Virus record (IMG/VR): IMGVR_UViG_3300044516_000846
Location: 1 to 53,423 of that record
DNA length: 53,423 bases
DNA from: a virus
Direction: 5' to 3' (one strand)
The position numbers were made by a program, and so were the translations under genes. The notes beneath the pieces are model-generated. The model worked only from the letters and a program-made list of their open reading frames with translations. It was not told the origin of the DNA and searched no databases. Every line of letters starts with the position of its first letter. Positions within the stretch are counted from its first letter, which is position 1. Below, one piece after another: positions 1,542-45,725 of this stretch.

Positions 1542-2789
1542 TTAAATACACCCTGAGCCTTCTTGATCAAGAGTTACACTTATTGATGGATCTGTAGATA
1601 AATCTACTCCCGTAAACTCTACATAACCACTGCTTACTTGACATTGGCTATACCCTGCAGATGTTGATACTCTTACTGGGGTGTCTGCTCCATGTGAAGA
1701 GAATACTACTATTGTAGAAAAAGATGTTCCGGCATATACACCTATTGCTGAATTAGTTGGTGAAAGTGGGAAAGTACCTAGTGGTACTATAATATCTGTT
1801 CCATCTACTTGTACATTGTTCAAATATGCATTAGCACCTGGAGAATTTAAGTTATAAACACTTATGTTTCCTTGGCTTGGTGCAGTTGTTGTTGTACTAG
1901 TTGTTGTAGTTGTTGTAGTTGTAGTCTCTTCTGGACATACTCCTGTTACATTCAAGGTTGCATCACCATTAGTCACTACGGTACCGTCTAAAGCACAGAA
2001 CGTTGTAGAGTCATAACCGCTTGTACCTCCTATGCTAATTGATTGAGGGTTTCCTCCACAATCTGTATAATTAGCTCCTGCATTTGTATTTGTGCCTAAT
2101 AAGTACTCAATGCATTGTGCAGGTGCAGCTGTGGTTGTTGTTGTACTAGTCGTAGTAGTGGTAGGTGCAGCTGTGGTTGTTGTTGTACTAGTCGTAGTAG
2201 TGGTTGTGTTACCTGAACAAGCTGTTACAAATGGGTATGATGCTTGGTGAGTTATTGTTTGCTCAGTAAAAGCAATCATTGTACCTCCAAAATAGTCATA
2301 CAACTCTAATCTTATAGTAACTGTTCCAGATGCATTTGTCTCTGTATACTCTACTTGTGTTGGTGTATACATTGCTGTAGCTCCTGAAGATGCAACTGTA
2401 GATGCTTCTACGTAGTAGCCAACAGGTGCTCCTGTTATATTAACAGGGAATATAATACCACATGTTGAATTATCATTACAAGTTCCTGCTGATCTACAAA
2501 TTGGTGTACCTGTTGCTATGTAAATAGAAGCTGGTGCAGCCGTAGTTGTAGGTGCAGCCGTAGTTGTAGGTGCAGGTACTACTGCTATATCTTCATAGTT
2601 TGTGCACTCTCCTGTAGATTGTACTCTTACTGTCGTTGTACCATCTGGTACATTTGCTATATAGCCTGACAGTAGATCCTGTTTAGCAACACCTGAGATT
2701 ACTAATACAAAAACCCCTGTTGAATTGCTATATATATCGAATGGTCCAGAGTCTGTTCCAGCTGATGTCAATGTTATTTGTACTATCAT
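1542..2789 (-). CDS. Modular virion protein with mucin-like Thr-rich linkers
   Basis: The 415-aa protein consists of four beta-rich domains joined by Thr/Ala/Pro linkers at about residues 72-87, 194-224 and 288-304 (for example runs of TTTTTSTTTTTAAP). Each globular part has a few Cys pairs (CRSAGTCNDNSTC, CGGNP, QCQ). There is no signal peptide, so it is more likely a virion surface or fibre component than a secreted protein. Its ATG overlaps the stop of the 250-aa gene upstream (TAATG). The linkers are encoded by tandem DNA repeats (2121-2204, 2533-2568), so length variation is expected. Thr-rich linkers would make good O-glycosylation acceptors, and five transferase genes lie nearby. Confidence 0.7.
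   Translation of the reverse strand: MIVQITLTSAGTDSGPFDIYSNSTGVFVLVISGVAKQDLLSGYIANVPDGTTTVRVQSTGECTNYEDIAVVPAPTTTAAPTTTAAPASIYIATGTPICRSAGTCNDNSTCGIIFPVNITGAPVGYYVEASTVASSGATAMYTPTQVEYTETNASGTVTIRLELYDYFGGTMIAFTEQTITHQASYPFVTACSGNTTTTTTSTTTTTAAPTTTTTSTTTTTAAPAQCIEYLLGTNTNAGANYTDCGGNPQSISIGGTSGYDSTTFCALDGTVVTNGDATLNVTGVCPEETTTTTTTTTSTTTTAPSQGNISVYNLNSPGANAYLNNVQVDGTDIIVPLGTFPLSPTNSAIGVYAGTSFSTIVVFSSHGADTPVRVSTSAGYSQCQVSSGYVEFTGVDLSTDPSISVTLDQEGSGCI
2121..2204. repeat. Tandem repeat, 42 bp x 2, in Thr-rich linker
   Basis: Two identical 42-bp units (2121-2162 and 2163-2204) lie head to tail and encode the central TTTTTSTTTTTAAP linker of the 415-aa protein. The unit length is a multiple of three, so copy-number change keeps the frame. 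Confidence 0.9.
2533..2568. repeat. Tandem repeat, 18 bp x 2, in first Thr-rich linker
   Basis: Two identical 18-bp units (2533-2550, 2551-2568) encode the TTTAAP TTTAAP linker of the 415-aa protein. A partial third copy follows. The repeats stay in frame. Confidence 0.85.
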
Positions 2790-4667: not shown

Positions 4668-5594
4668 TTATATTGTTGTAGTAGTAGTAGTATTTGGATC
4701 ATCACATGAAGTTATACCATTAAGGGCATATAATCCGCTACCTTCTATATAAGTTCCCAGTCTCATATTATTTATTTCACCAAATGGTAATACTTGAACA
4801 TAAAGTGTTCCATCTTGAAGCTCATTTGTTAGATTAGAGTTTCTAAACAACCTTGTATTGTTACTAATTACATTACTACTAGAGTAAACTGTTATTCTAG
4901 GAAGTTCGCAACTAAAAGTTTGTTCAGGGGATACCCAAGTAACACTGAATGCATTTGGTCCACTTGTCGTAGTTGTAGTAGTAGTTGGTGCTGAAGTAGT
5001 TGTGCCTGGGCAACCGCAGCTTTGAGAGGCTCCTCCAGCATCAACTAATGTTGCCATATAGAAAGGGGCTGATGAAGATAGTACATTAAAGAAAAAGATA
5101 TTACCGCTAATAGCACGGGGTACCCAATCCCCAATAGATAAAGGCGTTACCGTTTTTATTATCATATTAGTGCCAACAACATAATTACAATCTGGACATG
5201 CATACTGATTAGCTACATAATAATAAAATGGATCTGTAGTTGTTGTACTAGTGGTAATAGGAATAGTTGTTGTAGTGGTTGTAGGACAACAAGCTTCTAC
5301 TTGTGATTGTATAACTTCTAGTGTTACTAAGCTTTGTTCTAAAGCTACTTGCAACTGTTCTATAAGAAGTTGTTGATCTCTGTTTTCTTCTTCTAAAGCT
5401 ACTATATCTGAATTAGCCGCTACAAGACTTCTAACTATGTATTCTAATATCACTGCTAAACTTGCAGTATTTTGTGTACCTAAGTATTCTATTGCTAGAC
5501 CATAAAAGATACAATTTGTTAGTAAGGACCCCTGAATGCAGGGATCCTCTTGTGTATTTAAAATTGGTATATTTGTTTGATTACATCCTTCCAT
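4668..5594 (-). CDS. Coiled-coil virion protein with Thr-rich linkers
   Basis: 308 aa. Residues 1-105 form a head that aligns with the whole of the next upstream 105-aa protein: QEDPC, a T-x-C motif, then a heptad-rich coiled coil (EEENRDQQLLIEQLQ) ending ACCP. After CCP a run of six Thr begins a linker, followed by two small beta domains (with CPDC and CGCP motifs) separated by a second Thr linker. The protein ends in NTTTTTTI directly before the stop, a linker with no domain after it, so a C-terminal domain may have been lost. Likely a trimeric fibre or tip protein. Confidence 0.65.
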   Translation of the reverse strand: MEGCNQTNIPILNTQEDPCIQGSLLTNCIFYGLAIEYLGTQNTASLAVILEYIVRSLVAANSDIVALEEENRDQQLLIEQLQVALEQSLVTLEVIQSQVEACCPTTTTTTIPITTSTTTTDPFYYYVANQYACPDCNYVVGTNMIIKTVTPLSIGDWVPRAISGNIFFFNVLSSSAPFYMATLVDAGGASQSCGCPGTTTSAPTTTTTTTSGPNAFSVTWVSPEQTFSCELPRITVYSSSNVISNNTRLFRNSNLTNELQDGTLYVQVLPFGEINNMRLGTYIEGSGLYALNGITSCDDPNTTTTTTI

Positions 5595-6545: not shown

Positions 6546-7253
6546 CTAAACTTGTATATTAAAATTAATCACTGCTCTATGTTCTTTACCATAAAATGGT
6601 TCCACTGAGTGTATTATATCATAAGGCCAAATAATCAGCATGCCTTTTTTAGGTCTTATATAATATTTCATTCCTCTGACATGAAAAGCAAATACTCCGC
6701 TATATGGGTGATCTTGTATAGGTTCGCCATCAGATAAATAGTAGCCTCCCGAAAACATGATTGGCTTAGCTTCTTCATGGTGCCATCTGCAATGGTTATG
6801 TGCATTATGCCCTCTTCCTGAGAATGGATCATAGTACTGTAACCAACTTTCTGTTATGATTGGCTTACCTTCTACTTCTAGCTGCATTGCTTTTAGTAGT
6901 TGTAAAAATCCTCCCTCTATTCTTCTTCTTATAACTTGTACATCCTCATCGGGATTATCTAAGAAGTTATTTGGTGGTGTGTAGAACCTACTTCCTATTG
7001 GAGGAAATTCATGGTCTTCTACCCACTGATCTTGTCTATCGTAATTAATATCATAATGACCTTGTCTTTCTGTATCATACTGCTTTGGTAACTCTTGCCC
7101 CATTCTCTTTTGAGTATCTGTAAGAGTCTCTAATCCTAGCTTGTATACTTTATCAGTCAACACATCTTCGTAAACTCTCTGGTATACTGGTATTGGTGCT
7201 AATTGAAAGATGTGTTCATCTTGTGTCTCTATAAGAGGTTTTTTAAAATGCAT
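6546..7253 (-). CDS. 2OG-Fe(II) oxygenase-like protein
   Basis: 235 aa. The C-terminal half has the layout of 2-oxoglutarate/iron dioxygenases of the double-stranded beta-helix type: a His-rich first motif (GHNAHNHCRWHH, residues 149-159), then FSGGYYLS, SGVFAFHV, GMLIIWPYDIIHSVEPF with a distal His at 215, and an Arg near 226 (EHRAVINFN) for 2OG binding. The first motif is H-x-H rather than the usual H-x-D, so iron binding needs proof. It lies between the fibre genes and the transferase cluster. Hydroxylation of a virion protein or sugar is a reasonable guess; the substrate is unknown. Confidence 0.7.
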   Translation of the reverse strand: MHFKKPLIETQDEHIFQLAPIPVYQRVYEDVLTDKVYKLGLETLTDTQKRMGQELPKQYDTERQGHYDINYDRQDQWVEDHEFPPIGSRFYTPPNNFLDNPDEDVQVIRRRIEGGFLQLLKAMQLEVEGKPIITESWLQYYDPFSGRGHNAHNHCRWHHEEAKPIMFSGGYYLSDGEPIQDHPYSGVFAFHVRGMKYYIRPKKGMLIIWPYDIIHSVEPFYGKEHRAVINFNIQV

Positions 7254-11296: not shown

Positions 11297-14200
11297 TTAT
11301 TTGTTTGTTAATTGGTTTATTAATTGTTTTAGTTCCTCTATTTGAGTTTGTTGTTCTTTTATTGCTTCTATTAATACTGCTGTTATGTTACCATAAGCTA
11401 CGTTATACATTCCGTCAGTGTCTTGTCCTACTACTTCCGGTAGAACCTCCAAAGTCTCTTGAGCAATAACTCCGACTTTTCTTTGCTTATCTTCTGAGTC
11501 TATTCTAGTATAGTAAACACCTCTTAAGCTATTTACTTTTTCTAGAGCGTTATCAATAGTATGTATGTTTTCTTTTACTCTTCTATCTGAGTATGCTGTT
11601 ACATCACCAGTGGCAATTGCATTTCCAGAATCATCGCATCTAAGTCTCCACCCTCCTCCTGAGGTTAAGAAGCCTATGTTATTTGATGTATCTGCATAAA
11701 CATACCCTCGTATTGTAGAGTTATGATTAGATCTAAATTGTAGCTCTATATTTCCACCACTTCCTGTTATACTCCAAGCACTTCCTGTTTGAGGGTAAAA
11801 GTGTACACCATAATCTTGTCCGTATAACCCTGTATTACCTTGTGCTCTGAACCAGTTATTTGCATACATAGCTGAGACCTGAGAATTACCTGCTGGATCT
11901 ATGTAATAACCTGTATTGTTATTATCATAAAAAATAGGAGCTCTCATGTCGTCTCTTGCTCTAGTACTCCCTGTTAAAGAAGCTAGCCAAGTTCCATTCT
12001 CCATTGCTAAAAGACCGTGTGTATTTAAGTTTCCTGCAACTCCTCCGGCATTTGGGTGTGACCAAGCTAGTCCATATAAACTGCCTGTACTACTTCCATC
12101 AATAGGTAGTTTGTAAGAGTTACCCATTGCAAATATACCTTGATATCTTGTTGAGGTATAAAGTCCTACAATAGATTGTCCGTAGTTGTTATCTAGGTAG
12201 AGGTTTTCGTTTCCATCAATTCTAATACCACCGTTTGCTAAAACATAAGATAGTCTTGCTGTTCCATTGGGGTTAACATAGTACGAGCTATCATTTCCAT
12301 CATAGAAAATTCCTCCATATACATTGTTACCTCCAAAATTACAGTATCCGCTGTAATTACTGCTATCTAATGCTGTTCTCCACCCTTGCCATCCACTATT
12401 ATACCTTCTAAAATATAACTGGTCATCCCACATATTTTGTACAATCTGAAATCCGTAGGCCTGATCTCCAGGGTTTGATCCTATTGATATACCGTTGGAA
12501 TAACCGGCTGTTGGATTACCTGCTTGCCCTATATTCCAAGAATAAAATGGTCTAATTCCATGTCCAGGATGTGAGTTGTCTGGGCTTTGGGCATAAGGCG
12601 TTGCTAGTCTATCCGCATAAACAGTGTTTACCCTTGAATCACTGGCAGGATTTACATAGTATCCTGTGTTGTTAGAATCATAGAAAATAGGTGCTCGCAT
12701 GTCTGTATCATCGCTTAGCCCATATGTAGTGTATGATCTTTCCCAAGATGATATTAAAGCTCTAACAGTGCCATCGTCTTTTCTTAATCTCATATCTGGA
12801 TAACCAAGAGAGCTTGTCCAAAACCCACTTGCATTATCATTCCCTACTGCAGAAGTTTGAAATATAAAAGGCCATGTTGAGCTACCTGCGTTATCTATAG
12901 TTATTACGTTTCCGCTTGCTCCAGATCTATTAGAGTATAGTGTGGAAAAGTTTATTGCGTTTAAGTTACTAGTGGATGCTGGATCTACATAATAACCTGT
13001 ATTATTTGAATCATAGAAGATAGGTGCTCTAAGGGAATTTGCTGCTTCTAAATAACCTCCATCTATAGTTATAACGTCTCCACTACCTTGCCAATCCCAA
13101 AATGTTAGTTTATTAAAAGCAAGCCTAGCAAATGTAGACTGATTTTCTACAGCTAGTTGACTAAAAAAAGTTACATTTCCATTTAAGCTTAAGGCTGTAG
13201 AAGTACTTGCACCTCTTGCAGTTACAGTAGCTAAAGTATCTGTTTCTACAGCACTTGCTGTTACAGTCCAACTTCTGTCAGATGATAAATCATAAGATGT
13301 ACCATTAATTGTTATTGTTCTTGTTAAAGGTACAGCAAAAGATGTATAATTATTAGATGATAATACAGTATACCAAGTACTTCCAGTTCCGTTAAACCTG
13401 TAGTACATTTGGTTTGAGCTATTTACTCCTATTTGTGTAAAATCACTTCCATTACCCATTGTTAATGCTTGGAAATAGTTTCCTGGAGCATTAGGATCTG
13501 TCACCCAGTACCTAGTATCATTCACCTTCATTGAAGATATTCCACTAGTGGATGAGTTAATACCCCCACTTAAATTAGAGGCTGTAGCTGCACTTCCGGA
13601 AATGTTTCCTGAAATAGTTTGATTTACAGTTAGTGCATATAGATTTGATGTTGATGCTGGATCTAAGTAGTAGGCTGTATTGTTAGCGTCATAGTATAGT
13701 GGTGAGTACATGCTGTTTGCGGCTTGTACATAGTTTGACGAATATATATAGCCACTTGTTTGTAAAATACCTGATCCTGATACAGATGCTACATTTGTAG
13801 TACCTGTTCTAAAGATCCAACCTCTTGTAGTAGCACCTGAATTCATAGTGAAATAGGTAGCCCAATCTGAAGTTACTGAGCCATGAGTTCCATAAGTGGC
13901 TGTTCCTGCAAACATCAAACCATAAGTAGGTTGACCAGTAGCGGCTCCATTATATAATGATATACCATTTCCACTAGTAATACTCACATTTTCTACTCCT
14001 ATCCAGGCTCCTGTTAAAGAGTTTGCTGCTCTTACTATATTTAAGTTGCTAGTTGAAGCTGGGTCAACATAGTAACCAGTATTATTTGAATCGTAGAAAA
14101 TAGGTGCTCTAAATGAGTCTGTTGCTGTTACGTCTCCAGCAGATATTATCATTCTTTGGATAGGACTAACATTTGTTGTACCTGCCCAAAATCTTATAGG

Positions 14201-16306
14201 CTGGCCTGACTGATTAGCCATTATATCTAAACCTCCAGAATTATTTGTACTAATACCATATCCGTATGTTGTACCATCACCACTAAGTGTTCTAAGTGAA
14301 CTTGTAGTTGTTACTAATCCAATAGCTCCTGTGCTAGCTCCTGTGAATGCATAACTAGGTGTTGTTATGGATGTTGTTGTTGTAGCTCCTCTTCCTGTAA
14401 CTGTTGCTAATGTATCAGTTTCGCTATAAGAAGAAATATAACCATTTGGATTTGTTGCATTATAAGGGGTATACCCTAAAGCTGCTGTTACATTACCACT
14501 TGTTATGCCTGTAATATATCCTGGACCATTTGTTAATTGGTTTAAGTTTGTTAAGTTACCAGCATGCCATACATTATTTCCTCCCCAAGTTAATGCACCA
14601 GTTCCTGTTCTACCTAAAGATTCAGTGCCTGAACCAAAAGATATATATCCTGCTGTTGCGTCTTGTTGCCCTTTTACTTTTATAGAGTTTACTGCATTGT
14701 AGTCTCCTATCCAAGCATCATCTCCAATTTTTACATTTGTCCCGTTTCCGTTATTAGTTGTGAATATTTGGTCAAAAGATGGAGTGGCTGAAGTAGCTAC
14801 TGATTGTCCTATAGACACAGTAACTGCTCCAGTAGTTGAACTTACTGAAACTCCTGTTCCAGCATTAACTGATGATACAGCTCCGCCACCTCCTGCTGCA
14901 ATTGTAATTACATTTCCTGAAGCATCTACAGCTAAGTTTGCTACAGCTGTTCCTGTAAAGGAAGTTGCTGATGTATAAGCTGGTAATGTTAATTGCTTAG
15001 ATGCTAAGCTAACAGACATTGCTACACCAGTTGTACCATCGTTTGTTCCATATAGAAATCTTAATTGGTCTTTCCATACATCAATATGTCCGGCATAAGT
15101 CCAAGAAGTTGCTTTATTTAATATCATTTGTCCACCTTCATCTACACCATGTGCTCCTAATGTAAGGCTGGCTTCTGAAGATGCTGCTGCACCATTTAAT
15201 GAAAGCTTTGATAAATTTGAATTGGAAGCTGGGTCTAAATAATATGCTGTATTACTAGAGTCATAAAATATAGGTGCTCTAAAGTCAGAACTAGCTGTAA
15301 CTATTCCCCCTGAGCTTATGCTCATTTTTTCAGATCCGCTAGTTGTAAATGAGTATCCTGTTACTGCTTGTCCCCAAGATGGGTTAAAAACTAATTGATT
15401 TGATGTATTTACTTTAAATATAGACAAAGGTAATCCATCAGCTCTATAGGAAATAAATTGTTGGTTGTTCCCTATGCTTATATCACCTCCACTTATTTTA
15501 AGCTTTGCGTAGTTATCATCTGTAGTTGTACCAATAAGTATATTAGTACCATTATCGTATATTAAGCTATTGCCTAATGTAGTTGTTCCTGTAAACTTAG
15601 ATATGTAGTTTGCTGTACCACTTGCATTAGCTGGTGTATAACCTAGCCAACCTGCAATAGTTTTATTAACCCATAGAGTACCATTGTAACCTAAGATATG
15701 TCCATTAATAGGAGTTGTAGTTTTTAAGTCTGCGTCATGTAGCTCATCGAGCTCAAAACCGTTTTGTACTTTTACAAATATTTCTCCGTTATTAGTATTA
15801 GATCTAGTAACAATACCAATGAAAACTAAATGTGATGGTGCGTATGGTTTGTTTACTATACCATATATTAAGTTACCTCCAGTACCTAACCATACAGGAT
15901 CTCCTGCATTAGCTGTACTTGTATTTAATCCTGCAAGTAATCCCTCTGCTATTACATTACCAAAACCGTTGATTGCAACTGTTGAGGCCATTAGACCCAT
16001 TGTCTTAGAAGAGCTTACTTCAGCTGCATTTGAAGCTAGTCCAACAATCATGTTAGTACCATCTGCTCCTGTTACATAAACAGCTTGCCCTTTATTGATA
16101 GCGACACCTGCTTTTACTTGGTGTTGTATGTTAGATGCTACTCCAGGAGCTACACCTAAGTCAGATAGCATTTCTGAACCTGTTCTATACTTAACAACGC
16201 CAGCATCAGATACTAGAAACTTGTCTGTATCTGATGTAGCGTTGGTTATGTCGCCAATTGTAGCGTTACCTTTTATATCTAAATTTGAATATATTTTTTG
16301 AGACAT
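11297..16306 (-). CDS. Giant tail fibre with repeats and C-terminal S74 chaperone domain
   Basis: 1669 aa. After an N-terminal region of KIYSNLDIKGNATIG type and a segment like a capsid-decoration domain (GQAVYVTGADG), the body holds at least seven copies of a motif of the form R-A-P-I-F-Y-D-x-N-N-T-x-Y-Y-x-D-P-A-x-x-S-N-L, at DNA positions near 15250, 14080, 13670, 13000, 12660, 12270 and 11910. The last 99 residues begin SDRRVKEN near residue 1573 and include VGVIAQE and LPEVV, hallmarks of the Peptidase_S74 intramolecular chaperone that trimerises and then cuts itself off (Ser/Lys dyad in SDRRVK). A coiled coil ends the protein. Likely the main host-recognition fibre. Confidence 0.9.
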   Translation of the reverse strand: MSQKIYSNLDIKGNATIGDITNATSDTDKFLVSDAGVVKYRTGSEMLSDLGVAPGVASNIQHQVKAGVAINKGQAVYVTGADGTNMIVGLASNAAEVSSSKTMGLMASTVAINGFGNVIAEGLLAGLNTSTANAGDPVWLGTGGNLIYGIVNKPYAPSHLVFIGIVTRSNTNNGEIFVKVQNGFELDELHDADLKTTTPINGHILGYNGTLWVNKTIAGWLGYTPANASGTANYISKFTGTTTLGNSLIYDNGTNILIGTTTDDNYAKLKISGGDISIGNNQQFISYRADGLPLSIFKVNTSNQLVFNPSWGQAVTGYSFTTSGSEKMSISSGGIVTASSDFRAPIFYDSSNTAYYLDPASNSNLSKLSLNGAAASSEASLTLGAHGVDEGGQMILNKATSWTYAGHIDVWKDQLRFLYGTNDGTTGVAMSVSLASKQLTLPAYTSATSFTGTAVANLAVDASGNVITIAAGGGGAVSSVNAGTGVSVSSTTGAVTVSIGQSVATSATPSFDQIFTTNNGNGTNVKIGDDAWIGDYNAVNSIKVKGQQDATAGYISFGSGTESLGRTGTGALTWGGNNVWHAGNLTNLNQLTNGPGYITGITSGNVTAALGYTPYNATNPNGYISSYSETDTLATVTGRGATTTTSITTPSYAFTGASTGAIGLVTTTSSLRTLSGDGTTYGYGISTNNSGGLDIMANQSGQPIRFWAGTTNVSPIQRMIISAGDVTATDSFRAPIFYDSNNTGYYVDPASTSNLNIVRAANSLTGAWIGVENVSITSGNGISLYNGAATGQPTYGLMFAGTATYGTHGSVTSDWATYFTMNSGATTRGWIFRTGTTNVASVSGSGILQTSGYIYSSNYVQAANSMYSPLYYDANNTAYYLDPASTSNLYALTVNQTISGNISGSAATASNLSGGINSSTSGISSMKVNDTRYWVTDPNAPGNYFQALTMGNGSDFTQIGVNSSNQMYYRFNGTGSTWYTVLSSNNYTSFAVPLTRTITINGTSYDLSSDRSWTVTASAVETDTLATVTARGASTSTALSLNGNVTFFSQLAVENQSTFARLAFNKLTFWDWQGSGDVITIDGGYLEAANSLRAPIFYDSNNTGYYVDPASTSNLNAINFSTLYSNRSGASGNVITIDNAGSSTWPFIFQTSAVGNDNASGFWTSSLGYPDMRLRKDDGTVRALISSWERSYTTYGLSDDTDMRAPIFYDSNNTGYYVNPASDSRVNTVYADRLATPYAQSPDNSHPGHGIRPFYSWNIGQAGNPTAGYSNGISIGSNPGDQAYGFQIVQNMWDDQLYFRRYNSGWQGWRTALDSSNYSGYCNFGGNNVYGGIFYDGNDSSYYVNPNGTARLSYVLANGGIRIDGNENLYLDNNYGQSIVGLYTSTRYQGIFAMGNSYKLPIDGSSTGSLYGLAWSHPNAGGVAGNLNTHGLLAMENGTWLASLTGSTRARDDMRAPIFYDNNNTGYYIDPAGNSQVSAMYANNWFRAQGNTGLYGQDYGVHFYPQTGSAWSITGSGGNIELQFRSNHNSTIRGYVYADTSNNIGFLTSGGGWRLRCDDSGNAIATGDVTAYSDRRVKENIHTIDNALEKVNSLRGVYYTRIDSEDKQRKVGVIAQETLEVLPEVVGQDTDGMYNVAYGNITAVLIEAIKEQQTQIEELKQLINQLTNK

Positions 16307-20932: not shown

Positions 20933-20961
20933 AAAAAAAAGGGAGGAGTTTTTCTCCTCCC
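20933..20961 (-). terminator. Rho-independent terminator after the structural operon
   Basis: Perfect 8-bp stem (GGGAGGAG 20941-20948 with CTCCTCCC 20954-20961), 5-base loop, followed on the minus strand by a run of eight T (20933-20940). It closes transcription from the 569-aa virion protein gene and its extension, before the holin gene. Confidence 0.9.
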
Positions 20962-20978
20962 TATTTAAGTTTAATTTA

Positions 20979-21260
20979 TTATAGACATGTATTACATTGT
21001 GAACTTGCTGTCATATAACCATTACCGTCATATGCAAAGTTTCTAAATGTATTTTGAATTCCGTCAGAAGCAAGTACTTGTACATTTTCTCCAACTGCTA
21101 TTGTGTGATTAATAGTTGTTTGGAATTGTTCTAAGTTTGTAATTATTGCTGCTGTCGCATTACATACGTTGTCTCCACCTACTAGTTGTATACTTATACT
21201 ATTTGGATAGAATCCGTCTGTACATACAGTTCCTTCATTTGGAGAAGGCCATGCTGACAT
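20979..21260 (-). CDS. In-frame extension domain of the 569-aa virion protein (after TGA)
   Basis: This 93-codon frame is in the same phase as the upstream 569-aa gene. The 25 codons between them (21335-21261) also read as protein (GETTTTSSAPVHNAITS...), so the only interruption is the TGA at 21336-21338. The text is a Cys-containing beta domain (GTVCTDGFYPNSISIQ, ASSQCNTCL at the end). It may be made by readthrough, giving a 688-aa minor form, or started separately at ATG 21260, or the TGA may be a mutation or sequencing error. The terminator follows directly, so the extension lies in the same mRNA. Confidence 0.6.
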   Translation of the reverse strand: MSAWPSPNEGTVCTDGFYPNSISIQLVGGDNVCNATAAIITNLEQFQTTINHTIAVGENVQVLASDGIQNTFRNFAYDGNGYMTASSQCNTCL

Positions 21261-21335
21261 TAAAGCATTGTTGTATACTTGTGCACTAGTTATAGCATTG
21301 TGTACAGGTGCACTAGATGTAGTGGTAGTTTCTCC

Positions 21336-23045
21336 TCAAACACCAGTGGTTGTAGTTACTGAAGCTACTGGATAAGCTTCTACAGTTGGTAAACCAGCTG
21401 CTGTTGCTAATGCATTAACTAAAGCTTCTACTCCTTGGTATTTACAAGCATCTACTAAGATGTGGTAATCAATATTTTCTACTACTTCTCCTGAGAATGA
21501 TTGAGCAAAACGATTTGTTCTGATTCTGATAGAGTAGTCTACGTATTGTACTGTTGGTTTCAAGTGTGATTCTTGTCCTAATACTAATTTACCGTAGTTA
21601 TTACCTGCTAATCTTTGACGATTTTCAAAGTATACTCTAGTACGCTCTTCTAAGTCATAGAATTGTCCACCTACTGCTTCTGGTTCAGTTGCAATTGAAA
21701 GAACTTTCACATTGAATCTTCCATTAGATCCCAATTTGAATGACTCTGAAACAAGTCCAGGAGCTGCATTTGCGATAGAGATTCTTGTAGAAGAGTAAAC
21801 GAATGGTAATTCATCTCTATATTCTTCTGATCCAGCAAAAATATTTACTTTACCTTTCAAGTGGATACCCATAGCACTCATTCCATTGTATTGTACTGGT
21901 GCTGCTTCCCAACTTACGAATTCGTAAGAATCTGGTGCCTCTGCTGAGAACAAGTCTCTTAAGATTGGTGAACACTCTTCTGAAACAATGTTAGATAATA
22001 CTGTAGTAGTATAAATTGTTTGACATGCTTGAGAGTCTCCTGCAGTAATAGTTAATTCTGGATATGCTGCTTGGATAGCTTCTAATTTATTATCTCCACA
22101 TTTGTCATCTGCCAATTGTAAAGTAAAAGTTTTAGCTACTGCTGTAGCAGTTGCTCCTGCAGTCCATGCAATGTTTGTTACTGTATCTGTACAATCAGGT
22201 GATCCTGCACAATCAGAGTCTTGAGAAGACAAGATTTGAGCAAAAGATGCCAAAGTTGTAGATGTTGGTGCTAAGATTGCATACTCAGAAATTCCTCCTT
22301 TGTATCCTTCTCTCTTAACAATATGTGCTGGATATTGTGCTTGCACTAATCCTAATGCACTTGCATTACCTGCATCTTGTACTTTTAATCCAAAGAAAGT
22401 GTATTCAGTACCTGTTACAGTTTGTGGGTTTGAGCTATTTACTGGAGTAATATCAATATACTCAGTAATAGGAACTCCTCCTAATAAAGTTACTTTTTTC
22501 AATCTTTCAACACCCTCTTGAACAATTTTCTCCATGTTAACAGATACCATTTGTCCTGGGATAGCGTTTGGTGCTTCTAAGTAAAGTTTTACTGTTACTT
22601 TTGCTTCTGGGTAACCTAACATACCAATAGCTTCTCCAGCTAATGTGATGTCGATAACTTCATTATCCCCAGGTTGTAGGTTTAATCTTGTATCGTAGTT
22701 AATCCCATCGTAACCGATGATAAACTCATCTACTGATACCCCTAACTTTGGTGAGTTAACTTTGATGTCAACGATTTCTGAAAGTTTGAAAGGCATAGAT
22801 GAATATGCTTTGTTAGACTGAGAACGAGTTGGTGTCAAAGGTGCGATACCTAACTTCAATTCAAATAATCTATCTTTTGGTGTTGCTGGAAAAGTGTCTA
22901 CTACCGCCATACCTAATGCAGATGGTGTAGCTCCTTTATCAACGATACCAAACTGTCCTTTTGCTAATCTTGTAGAGTAGCCATTACTCATTACTGAACC
23001 TTCGTTAGTAACAAATAAAATTGTTTGTGGTGCGTGACTTGCCAT
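21336..23045 (-). CDS. Major virion protein (tail or neck), ends in Thr-rich linker at TGA
   Basis: 569 aa. No diagnostic family motif recognised. It is a beta-rich protein with repeated Gly-Pro turns, a GVSVDEFIIGYDG segment, and a C-terminal domain with RIRTNRFAQSFSGEVVENIDYHILVDA. It is read third after the capsid candidate, where tail sheath, tail-tube or head-closure proteins are coded in many phages; a sheath-like role is possible but there is no proof. The end is VTTTTGV, a Thr-rich linker as in the modular fibre proteins, and the frame continues past the TGA. Codon use is regular and AT-rich, as in highly expressed structural genes. Confidence 0.65.
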   Translation of the reverse strand: MASHAPQTILFVTNEGSVMSNGYSTRLAKGQFGIVDKGATPSALGMAVVDTFPATPKDRLFELKLGIAPLTPTRSQSNKAYSSMPFKLSEIVDIKVNSPKLGVSVDEFIIGYDGINYDTRLNLQPGDNEVIDITLAGEAIGMLGYPEAKVTVKLYLEAPNAIPGQMVSVNMEKIVQEGVERLKKVTLLGGVPITEYIDITPVNSSNPQTVTGTEYTFFGLKVQDAGNASALGLVQAQYPAHIVKREGYKGGISEYAILAPTSTTLASFAQILSSQDSDCAGSPDCTDTVTNIAWTAGATATAVAKTFTLQLADDKCGDNKLEAIQAAYPELTITAGDSQACQTIYTTTVLSNIVSEECSPILRDLFSAEAPDSYEFVSWEAAPVQYNGMSAMGIHLKGKVNIFAGSEEYRDELPFVYSSTRISIANAAPGLVSESFKLGSNGRFNVKVLSIATEPEAVGGQFYDLEERTRVYFENRQRLAGNNYGKLVLGQESHLKPTVQYVDYSIRIRTNRFAQSFSGEVVENIDYHILVDACKYQGVEALVNALATAAGLPTVEAYPVASVTTTTGV

Positions 23046-38005: not shown

Positions 38006-38989
38006 ATGGCAGAAGAAAAAGATCCGTTATTAGATGTATTATCTAGCATGGATAAAAGATTTGGAAAAGGTGCTGTTATTGTTGGAGACACTGTTATTCA
38101 AACAGAGCGACAAAGCACTGGATCCCTAGGAGTTGACATAATCACCGGTGGTGGTTGGGGAAGAGGTAGAATGGTTGAGATATTTGGGCCAGAAAGTTCT
38201 GGAAAAACAACCCTTTGTATCCATACAATGATACAAGCACAGAAAGATGACCCTAATAAAAGAGTTGCCTTTATAGATGCAGAGCATGCATTTGATAGAA
38301 ACTACGCTGAACACCTTGGATTAGATATGTCACAAGTAATCATATCACAGCCGGATAGTGGAGAACAAGCGTTAGAAATTGCAGAAGCTTTGATAGCATC
38401 AGGTAAAATTTCAGTTTGTGTTATTGATTCAGTTGCGGCACTTACACCAAAAGCAGAGATTGAGGGCGAAATGGGGGATTCTAAAATGGGATTACATGCT
38501 CGATTGATGTCACAAGCTTGTAGAAAGCTTACAGGAGTTGTTAATAAAACAAACACTGTACTTTTGTGGACAAATCAGATAAGAATGAAGATTGGAGTTA
38601 TGTTTGGTAGCCCAGAGACAGTTCCAGGAGGAGAGGCACTTAAGTTTTACGCATCAACTAGGATTGATATTAGAAAGAGTGCTGGAGATAAAGATGATGC
38701 CGGAAATGTTATCAATAGCCACGTTAAGGTAAAGACTATTAAGAATAAGTTAGCACCACCTTTCCAATTAACCACTTTTGATATAGTTTTTGGAGAAGGT
38801 ATTGATAGATCTAGTGAGATTCTAGCTATTGGAGAAAATCTTGGAATAATTGAGAAGAAAGGATCTTGGTTTAACTACGGAGAAACTAAGTTAGGACAAG
38901 GTGGAGGAAACGTTAAGCAATTGCTAAAGGATAATCCAGAACTTTCTGAGGAGATAGAAGCTAAGATTAGAGAACACTTTAATATCTAG
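38006..38989 (+). CDS. recA: RecA recombinase
   Basis: 327 aa. It carries the RecA core: GPESSGKTT (61-69, Walker A), [35 protein letters not shown], and [29 protein letters not shown] (loop L2 and nearby). Slightly shorter than bacterial RecA (about 350 aa), mainly by a short, non-acidic C-terminus. It drives strand exchange in phage DNA recombination and possibly replication. Located after the helicase with its own promoter, and followed by the SegE-like gene after two bases. Confidence 0.97.
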
Positions 38990-42633: not shown

Positions 42634-44172
42634 ATGTTAAAAATAGGAAAAGAGGCAAAAGAATCTCTTATCAGGGGTATTAACGTAGTATCAGATGCAG
42701 TCAAGACAACGATGGGGGCAGAAGGTAAGACAGTTATTATTGAGAATAAAATGGGATTCAAACCTCACATTACTAAAGATGGGGTAACAGTAGCCGAGAG
42801 TATCTTACTAGAAGATGCTTACGAAGAGATTGGTGCCAAATTGATCAAGGAAGCCGCAAGGAGAACGGTTGATTTAGTGGGGGACGGTACAACTACAGCC
42901 ACGGTTATCACACAAGAGTTGATAAACAGAGGTTTAGAGAAACTAGAATCCGGAGTATCACACGTAGAGTTAAGAGAAGGTATGGCTATTGCAATCGAAG
43001 ATGTAAAGCTTGCCCTGAAAGGCTTGAAGAAAGAGGTTGGCGAGAAAGAGGTAAAGCAAATAGCTACTATCTCTGCAAATAATGATGCCGTAGTAGGAGA
43101 AATTATAGCTGACGTATACAAGAAGATTGGCGTAGAAGGAACGGTTGATGTACAAGAAGGTGTAGCAAAAGACACTACAGTTAATTACATCGAAGGTATG
43201 TCACTAGATAGAGGTTGGGCTTTGCCACACTTTGTATCGGACACAAGTACCGGAACAGCCGAACTTAATGACACTTATATCTTGATCTACGATGGTAAGA
43301 TCAATGCAGTAAACGATATTGCAGAACACGTAAGAAAGGCCCAAACAGAAGGTAAAGGATTGCACATTTTTGCTGAAGATTTAGACGAAGGTGTTATGAC
43401 AATGCTTGTCAAAAGTAAAATGCAAGGTACATTTAGAGTTACCGTTACTATGAACCCAGATTTTGGAACCAATAGAACTAGTATCTTAGAGGACCTAGCA
43501 ATATTTACTGGAGGAGAAGTTTTCACACCTAAGTTCTCTACAAAAGTAGTATTAGGACATGCTGCAAAAACAATCTCAGACAAAAGTAGAACAGTTATCA
43601 TTACAGATACCGGAAGCCAAGAACTTTTAGACAGAATTGAAGTGTTAAAAACTCAAGTTGAGAACACAGAAGACGTTGTAGACAAAGCTAAACTGGTAAA
43701 AAGGTTGTCAAACTTGCGAAATGCCGTAGCTATTGTAACAGTTGGTGGAGTTACCGATCTTGAAGTGAAAGAAAAGAAAGATAGGATTGATGACGCTGTT
43801 AGTGCTGTACGATCTGCACTAGAAGGTGGATTTGTTGCCGGTGGAGGATCAACTTTATTGTATATTTCCAAGTACAAAATGAAGAAAAAGCTGAAAGGCG
43901 GCCAAAAAGATGGATATGAGTTGTTGAAAGCAGCTATCCAGAAGCCGTTTGAGCAAATTTTGTTGAATGCTGGGTTAGACAAAGACAAATACGAGCCTAG
44001 ACTTAGAGTTTACGGTAAAGGTATCAACGTCAAAACTAGAAAAGTAGAAAATTTACTAGAAAGAGGAGTTATTGACTCAGCTAAAGTAGTAGAAGTTTCT
44101 TTAGAGAATGCTAATTCAGTAGCCTCACTAGTACTACAAACAGATTGTATAATCACAAGTGCCGGACTATAA
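42634..44172 (+). CDS. groEL: GroEL-type chaperonin
   Basis: 512 aa. The nucleotide site GDGTTTAT (83-90) and the GAKLIKEAA lead-in are clear. The apical domain keeps the GMSLDRGWALPHF segment (family DRGYLSPYF), and VGGVTDLEVKEKKDRIDDA near residue 380 corresponds to the family 'V-G-A-T-E-x-E-x-K-E-K-K-x-R-x-D-D-A'. It is shorter than bacterial GroEL (about 545 aa), ends ITSAGL with no GGM tail, and is clearly divergent. Forms the folding chamber with the GroES gene downstream. Phage-coded chaperonins are uncommon, and usually serve capsid folding or enzyme folding independent of the host. Confidence 0.95.
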   Translation: MLKIGKEAKESLIRGINVVSDAVKTTMGAEGKTVIIENKMGFKPHITKDGVTVAESILLEDAYEEIGAKLIKEAARRTVDLVGDGTTTATVITQELINRGLEKLESGVSHVELREGMAIAIEDVKLALKGLKKEVGEKEVKQIATISANNDAVVGEIIADVYKKIGVEGTVDVQEGVAKDTTVNYIEGMSLDRGWALPHFVSDTSTGTAELNDTYILIYDGKINAVNDIAEHVRKAQTEGKGLHIFAEDLDEGVMTMLVKSKMQGTFRVTVTMNPDFGTNRTSILEDLAIFTGGEVFTPKFSTKVVLGHAAKTISDKSRTVIITDTGSQELLDRIEVLKTQVENTEDVVDKAKLVKRLSNLRNAVAIVTVGGVTDLEVKEKKDRIDDAVSAVRSALEGGFVAGGGSTLLYISKYKMKKKLKGGQKDGYELLKAAIQKPFEQILLNAGLDKDKYEPRLRVYGKGINVKTRKVENLLERGVIDSAKVVEVSLENANSVASLVLQTDCIITSAGL

Positions 44173-45470: not shown

Positions 45471-45725
45471 ATGGCAGCAGTAGAAGCAATCAAATTTTCA
45501 GCAACATGGTGTGGACCATGCCGAGTAGTAGGTAAAGCTCTAGAAGGAGTAGACTTAAAACAAGTAGACATTGACACAGACGTTGATGGATTAGCAAAAG
45601 AGTACAATATCCGTAGTGTACCTACAATAGTCTTTGTAAAAGATGGCCAAGAAATCGCAAGACATGCAGGGCTTATCACTAAGTCAGAATATGAAACCAA
45701 ACTAGAAACCTTAAAAAACCAATAA
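45471..45725 (+). CDS. Thioredoxin-like protein
   Basis: 84 aa, shorter than normal thioredoxin (about 105 aa) because the first strand-helix is missing. It has ATWCGPC (active site Cys 14 and Cys 17), RSVPT with the cis-Pro, and FVKDGQEIARHAG. It should be able to exchange disulfides. Phage thioredoxins serve ribonucleotide reductase, DNA polymerase processivity or virion disulfides; the many Cys-rich virion proteins here make the last a reasonable thought. Confidence 0.9.
   Translation: MAAVEAIKFSATWCGPCRVVGKALEGVDLKQVDIDTDVDGLAKEYNIRSVPTIVFVKDGQEIARHAGLITKSEYETKLETLKNQ

Follow-up and report, generated by a model that had tools for sequence, protein, structure and literature searches.

In bacteriophage Q-beta, the A1 protein is reported to be the product of UGA misreading, at about 1/15 (PMC8067240), and background reading of UGA by tRNA-Trp is documented for Escherichia coli (PMC13092985). 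Recoding, in the form of frameshifting, is commonly used by phages to equip a fraction of their coat or tail proteins with surface domains (PMC5009743). In the crassvirus phiCrAss001, gp36 makes up the outer layer of the capsid, where each asymmetric unit holds nine copies of it, as many as of the major capsid protein (MCP), and it contains a FliD-like domain (PMC10172136). In the literature searched, with its partial coverage, no description was found of UGA-readthrough display in tailed phages, crassviruses included.

Here, we analyze a gene in a 53,423-nt stretch of viral DNA (IMGVR_UViG_3300044516_000846, positions 1 to 53,423; a 53-kb fragment of a virus record), referred to below as the window. 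The gene probably encodes an auxiliary capsid protein, and a single in-frame TGA separates this body from a linked C-terminal module. Two outcomes are considered for the stop: either a few copies of the protein bear the module through readthrough, or the module has recently been switched off.

Results

A single long frame interrupted by TGA

On the minus strand of the window, 569 codons (the body, 21339 to 23045) are followed by TGA (21338 to 21336) in the context GTT TGA GGA GAA. The same frame continues as GETTTTSSAPV and so on for 118 further codons (20982 to 21335) up to a TAA at 20981 to 20979, and the whole frame spans 23045 to 20979. A second TAA (20978 to 20976) directly adjoins the first, closing the long frame with a tandem TAA TAA (20976 to 20981). 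The TGA is flanked on both sides by a Thr-rich linker (21261 to 21356; ..TTTTGV*GETTTTSSAPVHNAITSAQVYNNAL), and the post-TGA frame comprises the remainder of this linker and a Cys-containing C-terminal module of about the last 93 amino acids. The earliest in-frame ATG past the TGA lies 25 codons downstream, at 21260, and opens a 93-aa open reading frame. An intrinsic terminator with a hairpin and T-run (GGGAGGAG-AAAAA-CTCCTCCC-T8; 20933 to 20961, minus strand) is located 3' of the tandem TAA, which places body and module within one transcription unit, and no terminator is present between body and module. On re-translation, the split frame was found as the original prediction had described it.

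The post-TGA frame has the properties of coding sequence. In random sequence of the same composition, 118 open codons would be expected with a P of about 1e-4; across the same stretch, 4 to 11 stops are present in each of the other five frames. Codon usage after the TGA scores 0.31 log-odds per codon, compared with 0.10 to 0.35 in four phage genes, and the 25 codons ahead of the internal ATG are likewise coding-like (0.29). Within the window's set of 66 genes, TGA ends two, the second being 35581 to 35225, and no other long gene contains an in-frame TGA. The proposed rarity of TGA as a stop is therefore upheld for the long genes, with the correction that one other gene, and not three short ones, ends in TGA.

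The body most likely is an outer auxiliary capsid protein

The body matches phrog_32037, a family listed in PHROGs with no function. By tblastn, it aligns with the structural proteins gp61 and gp063 of Cellulophaga phages phi4:1 and phi17:2, respectively (38% identity over 98%). As phi4:1 gp61 is annotated as structural from its detection by MS/MS, the earlier assignment of the body to the virion is supported. A full-length AF2 model, made from 18 sequences with UGA read as Trp, was of low confidence (mean pLDDT, 57). With this low-confidence model as the query, the best PDB match in Foldseek was 7qof_a (E 6e-6; probability 1.00), followed by FliD entries. Chain a of 7QOF is the auxiliary capsid protein gp36 of phiCrAss001, and the FliD entries ranking below it are in keeping with the FliD-like domain described for gp36. 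Given the pLDDT of the model, assignment of a gp36-type fold, with two domains (PH and FliD-like), is provisional. An hhalign comparison of body and gp36 aligned 25 C-terminal columns only, pairing the C-terminal helices of both proteins, and was not significant (E 0.086).

Gene order agrees with the structural match. In the window, the MCP gene is followed by genes for 323 aa and 221 aa and then by the body gene; in crAss001, the order is gp32, gp33 (330 aa), gp34 (238 aa), gp35 (230 aa), and gp36, with one extra intervening gene relative to the window. On the basis of fold, gene order, and the MS-detected homologue, we regard the body as most likely being the crassvirus auxiliary ("decoration") protein of the outer capsid, and a likely role can now be proposed for phrog_32037. 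In an abundant head-surface protein of the gp36 type, the module would hang from the C terminus on a flexible linker. AF2 predicts the module with a pLDDT of 35 when alone and of about 50 within the full-length model.

The same TGA in two virus lineages

Scans of viral contigs were made for close relatives of the body, and every one that they returned was read. The contig G002 (3300042901) carries a gene (L015) identical to that of the window, including the TGA, with one mismatch over 53 kb. In G001 (3300046327), the gene (L004) encodes a body 97% identical at the amino acid level and has the same TGA. The TGA is thus real and common to two virus lineages. A sequencing error, named at first as an alternative, or an assembly error, either of them conceivable for a metagenome contig, is for practical purposes ruled out by the identical TGA in these two independent contigs, each from a different metagenome record; in one of them, the flanking codons differ.

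Around the TGA, the window and G001 differ at codons 566, 569 (GTT versus GCT), and 575. As these differences lie on either side of it, the TGA was already in place before the two alleles diverged, and it is unlikely to have been transferred recently by itself; the post-TGA differences between the two would then have arisen while the TGA was present. Only two TGA-bearing alleles were found, and a deeper profile scan for the module gave no additional ones. G001 is a recombinant. Across some 20 kb in the early region, it is 99.97% identical to G006, which has a fused form of the gene (L024 to L026 versus L036/L037), and in the structural and tail half, it is window-like and carries the window's TGA allele. 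Alleles have therefore been swapped between otherwise nearly identical viruses.

Fused and module-less relatives

In four relatives, L005/L006 (bodies 94% identical) and L007/L008 (93%), a single stop-free frame of 655 to 658 aa runs from the body through the Thr linker into a Cys module, in agreement with the original view that a single gene is split by a TGA inside the linker. Fused genes of this kind had also been named beforehand as one half of a possible argument against readthrough, and this half holds. L009 to L013 (bodies 79 to 83%) and more distant relatives end at the body and have neither linker nor module; in L009 to L013, a terminator of the GGGAGGAG type directly follows the body stop. 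The body tree places TGA-bearing and fused forms in one fully supported group (100/100), with module-less forms outside, and the simplest history is accordingly one gain of linker and module, followed by module exchange and the appearance of the TGA in one line. The modules of the fused relatives are merely 27 to 33% identical to that of the window, compared with 93 to 94% for the bodies, and similarity at the DNA level breaks off within the linker, at about 21345. The module was seen as a separate gene in no relative, and no homologues of it were found among annotated phages. A scan of GTDB genomes returned two distant body relatives and nothing else.

Thr-linked Cys modules are also present in the adhesin-like genes 1542 to 2789 and 4668 to 5594 and in a 1100-aa gene of G003, and they are swapped between genomes. 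Comparison of these loci shows a Thr-linked set, shuffled by these phages among virion and adhesin genes, of which the module is a member. The L007 module resembles one of the Thr-linked modules at these loci (E 5e-4 within a small set), a possible likeness that is suggestive only. A scan of viral contigs for stops within Thr linkers gave at least 120 stretches; of the ones analyzed, none had a stop in frame, and there is thus no sign that such stops are common.

The gene at 4668 to 5594 (minus strand) carries its Cys-containing modules on poly-Thr linkers, and the window copy ends in a bare Thr linker. The distal modules of its counterparts in G001 (L023:14741-15955) and G003 (L033:11343-14645) differ between near-identical phages. 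A second gene with long poly-Thr linkers is found at 1542 to 2789 (minus strand) and at L023:12393-13619. G001 has the start of the upstream gene (MKNFKRNIYRLS..) connected to this linker-module gene, which is not the case in the window. The block of tail and adhesin genes also includes a putative 2OG-Fe(II) oxygenase (6546 to 7253, minus strand). A 1669-aa tail fiber-like protein (11297 to 16306, minus strand) carries an endosialidase chaperone (S74) at its C terminus and also gives a borderline match to an antirestriction family (25.4 bits against a cutoff of 25). Elsewhere, the window encodes a GroEL-type chaperonin (Cpn60, E 3e-54; 42634 to 44172, plus strand), with RecA (38006 to 38989) and thioredoxin (45471 to 45725) nearby.

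Substitutions and signals after the TGA

Over the 118 post-TGA codons, the window and G001 differ by 10 substitutions, 5 synonymous and 5 nonsynonymous, with no stops and no indels (NG86: dN, 0.018; dS, 0.066; dN/dS, 0.28). In neutral simulations of 10 substitutions, at least 5 synonymous changes and no stop were obtained in 4 to 8% of runs (P 0.04 to 0.08). Intergenic DNA of the same genome pair has 5 indels per 17 substitutions, from which 0 indels alongside 10 post-TGA substitutions has a P of 0.10, and the two tests combined give a P of about 0.02 to 0.05. In the same comparison, the flanking genes (76 synonymous to 5 nonsynonymous) are far more constrained than the post-TGA frame (Fisher P 0.001), and the body (40 to 16) does not differ significantly from it (P 0.27). 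The dN/dS of the module exceeds that of almost all its neighborhood (flanking genes, 0 to 0.07; body, 0.12). Taken at moderate strength, the pattern would favor continued translation of a fast-evolving domain, with a young pseudogene also compatible; the higher dN/dS of the module may fit relaxed constraint as well as a variable surface domain.

We detected no RNA folding 3' of the TGA above that of shuffled sequences (z between 0.07 and 0.7), and Rfam gave sub-threshold chance matches only. A 3' stimulatory structure is present in some cases of readthrough and is not required. No suppressor tRNA was found in the contigs examined, which are incomplete, or in a 128-kb relative (G008). In G008, a tmRNA-like prediction overlaps a tRNA-Met (L044:12757-13328) and may be a false positive.

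Discussion

In our view, the best reading of this locus, at about even chances, is a leaky UGA through which a minority of the decoration proteins would display the module in the manner of Q-beta A1. The arrangement itself, an in-frame stop and then a conserved coding frame, is that of the Q-beta A1 type, as seen from the window, L004, and the fused relatives. As the comparison of relatives shows, the probable decoration protein of this clade gained a C-terminal Thr-rich linker and a Cys-containing surface module from a shuffled pool. The UGA within the unstructured linker would then halt most ribosomes and yield the plain decoration protein, and a few per cent of ribosomes would decode it with a near-cognate tRNA, probably tRNA-Trp, to give a 688-residue form. 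As the UGA sits in the Thr linker, any residue inserted there should be tolerated. A minority of capsid copies could in this way display the module at the surface, as with A1 in Q-beta, and the module might there take part in host binding. The minor readthrough form put forward originally gains from the moderate signal of selection on the post-TGA frame, which falls short of proving readthrough itself. We also consider a fuller account, the chances of which we put a little below even: a crAss-like dsDNA phage may use programmed UGA readthrough to place a swappable module on few decoration proteins, its sisters fuse other modules stop-free, and recoding would be the switch that sets whether display is full or sparse.

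Recent nonsense truncation is the main alternative, quite possible if not what we would expect. Here, the TGA would have removed an accessory module dispensable in the current host, and the post-TGA frame would be a young, unbroken pseudogene fragment. That L009 to L013 exist without any module shows that it is dispensable, and the bare Thr linker of gene 4668 to 5594 shows that modules do get lost at linkers. The elevated dN/dS of the module relative to the flanking genes and the lack of a detectable stimulator after the TGA also fit truncation. However, the TGA predates the allele split, and yet the frame has gained no further stops or indels and has an excess of silent changes; moreover, the TGA allele has moved by recombination into the G006-like background of G001 and persists there.

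It is improbable that translation from the ATG at 21260 yields the module as a 93-aa protein of its own, which would join the virion independently. This in-frame ATG does lie near the start of the conserved module, but most start regions of the phage are richer in A than the sequence ahead of it (GTATACAACAATGCTTTA), the 25 upstream codons retain coding usage and Thr linker that a separate protein would not need, and no relative encodes the module separately. Termination-reinitiation at an overlapping start was rejected, as the overlapping TTG frame ends within a few codons, and a frameshift at a slippery site was rejected on inspection of the sequence, in which the module lies in frame 0. Some crAss-like phages reassign stops, and the phages studied here seldom end genes with UGA, both of which could suggest that UGA is a Trp codon for the phage, or for the host late in infection, with all copies full length. 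We consider this very improbable: under code 4, many in-frame TGAs would be expected in late genes, whereas the window has one among its long genes, which led us to reject a global reassignment; in addition, UGA still terminates gene 35581 to 35225, and no suppressor tRNA was found in the incomplete contigs examined or in the 128-kb relative.

If leaky reading of the UGA is correct, the strategy of Q-beta A1 would extend to a phage of the crassvirus group, tailed and with a dsDNA genome. Otherwise near-identical phages with the module fully fused, separated by a stop, or missing would then form a natural comparison set, with which to test how phages set the dose of host-facing head domains and how leaky UGA is in Bacteroidota hosts.

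The Q-beta system shares with the window gene the layout of an abundant coat-type protein whose frame, past a UGA, runs on through a flexible linker into a surface domain. It differs in belonging to an ssRNA phage, with no homology, and in that readthrough is measured in Q-beta and inferred for the window gene. In the frameshifted Ig-like domains of the T3 and Lactobacillus A2 coat proteins and of Listeria phages A118, A500, and PSA, a fraction of the protein likewise gains a C-terminal surface domain by recoding, but through a frameshift and not an in-frame stop. phiCrAss001 gp36, at 333 aa, has no linker, module, or internal stop; it is nevertheless the best structural match of the body and is similarly encoded a few genes past the MCP, directly behind a gene of about 225 aa. 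Finally, gp61 of phi4:1 and gp063 of phi17:2 (Lightbulbvirus) stop at the body, without Thr linker, module, or readthrough frame, and share with the window gene an identity of 38% that extends across the whole body.
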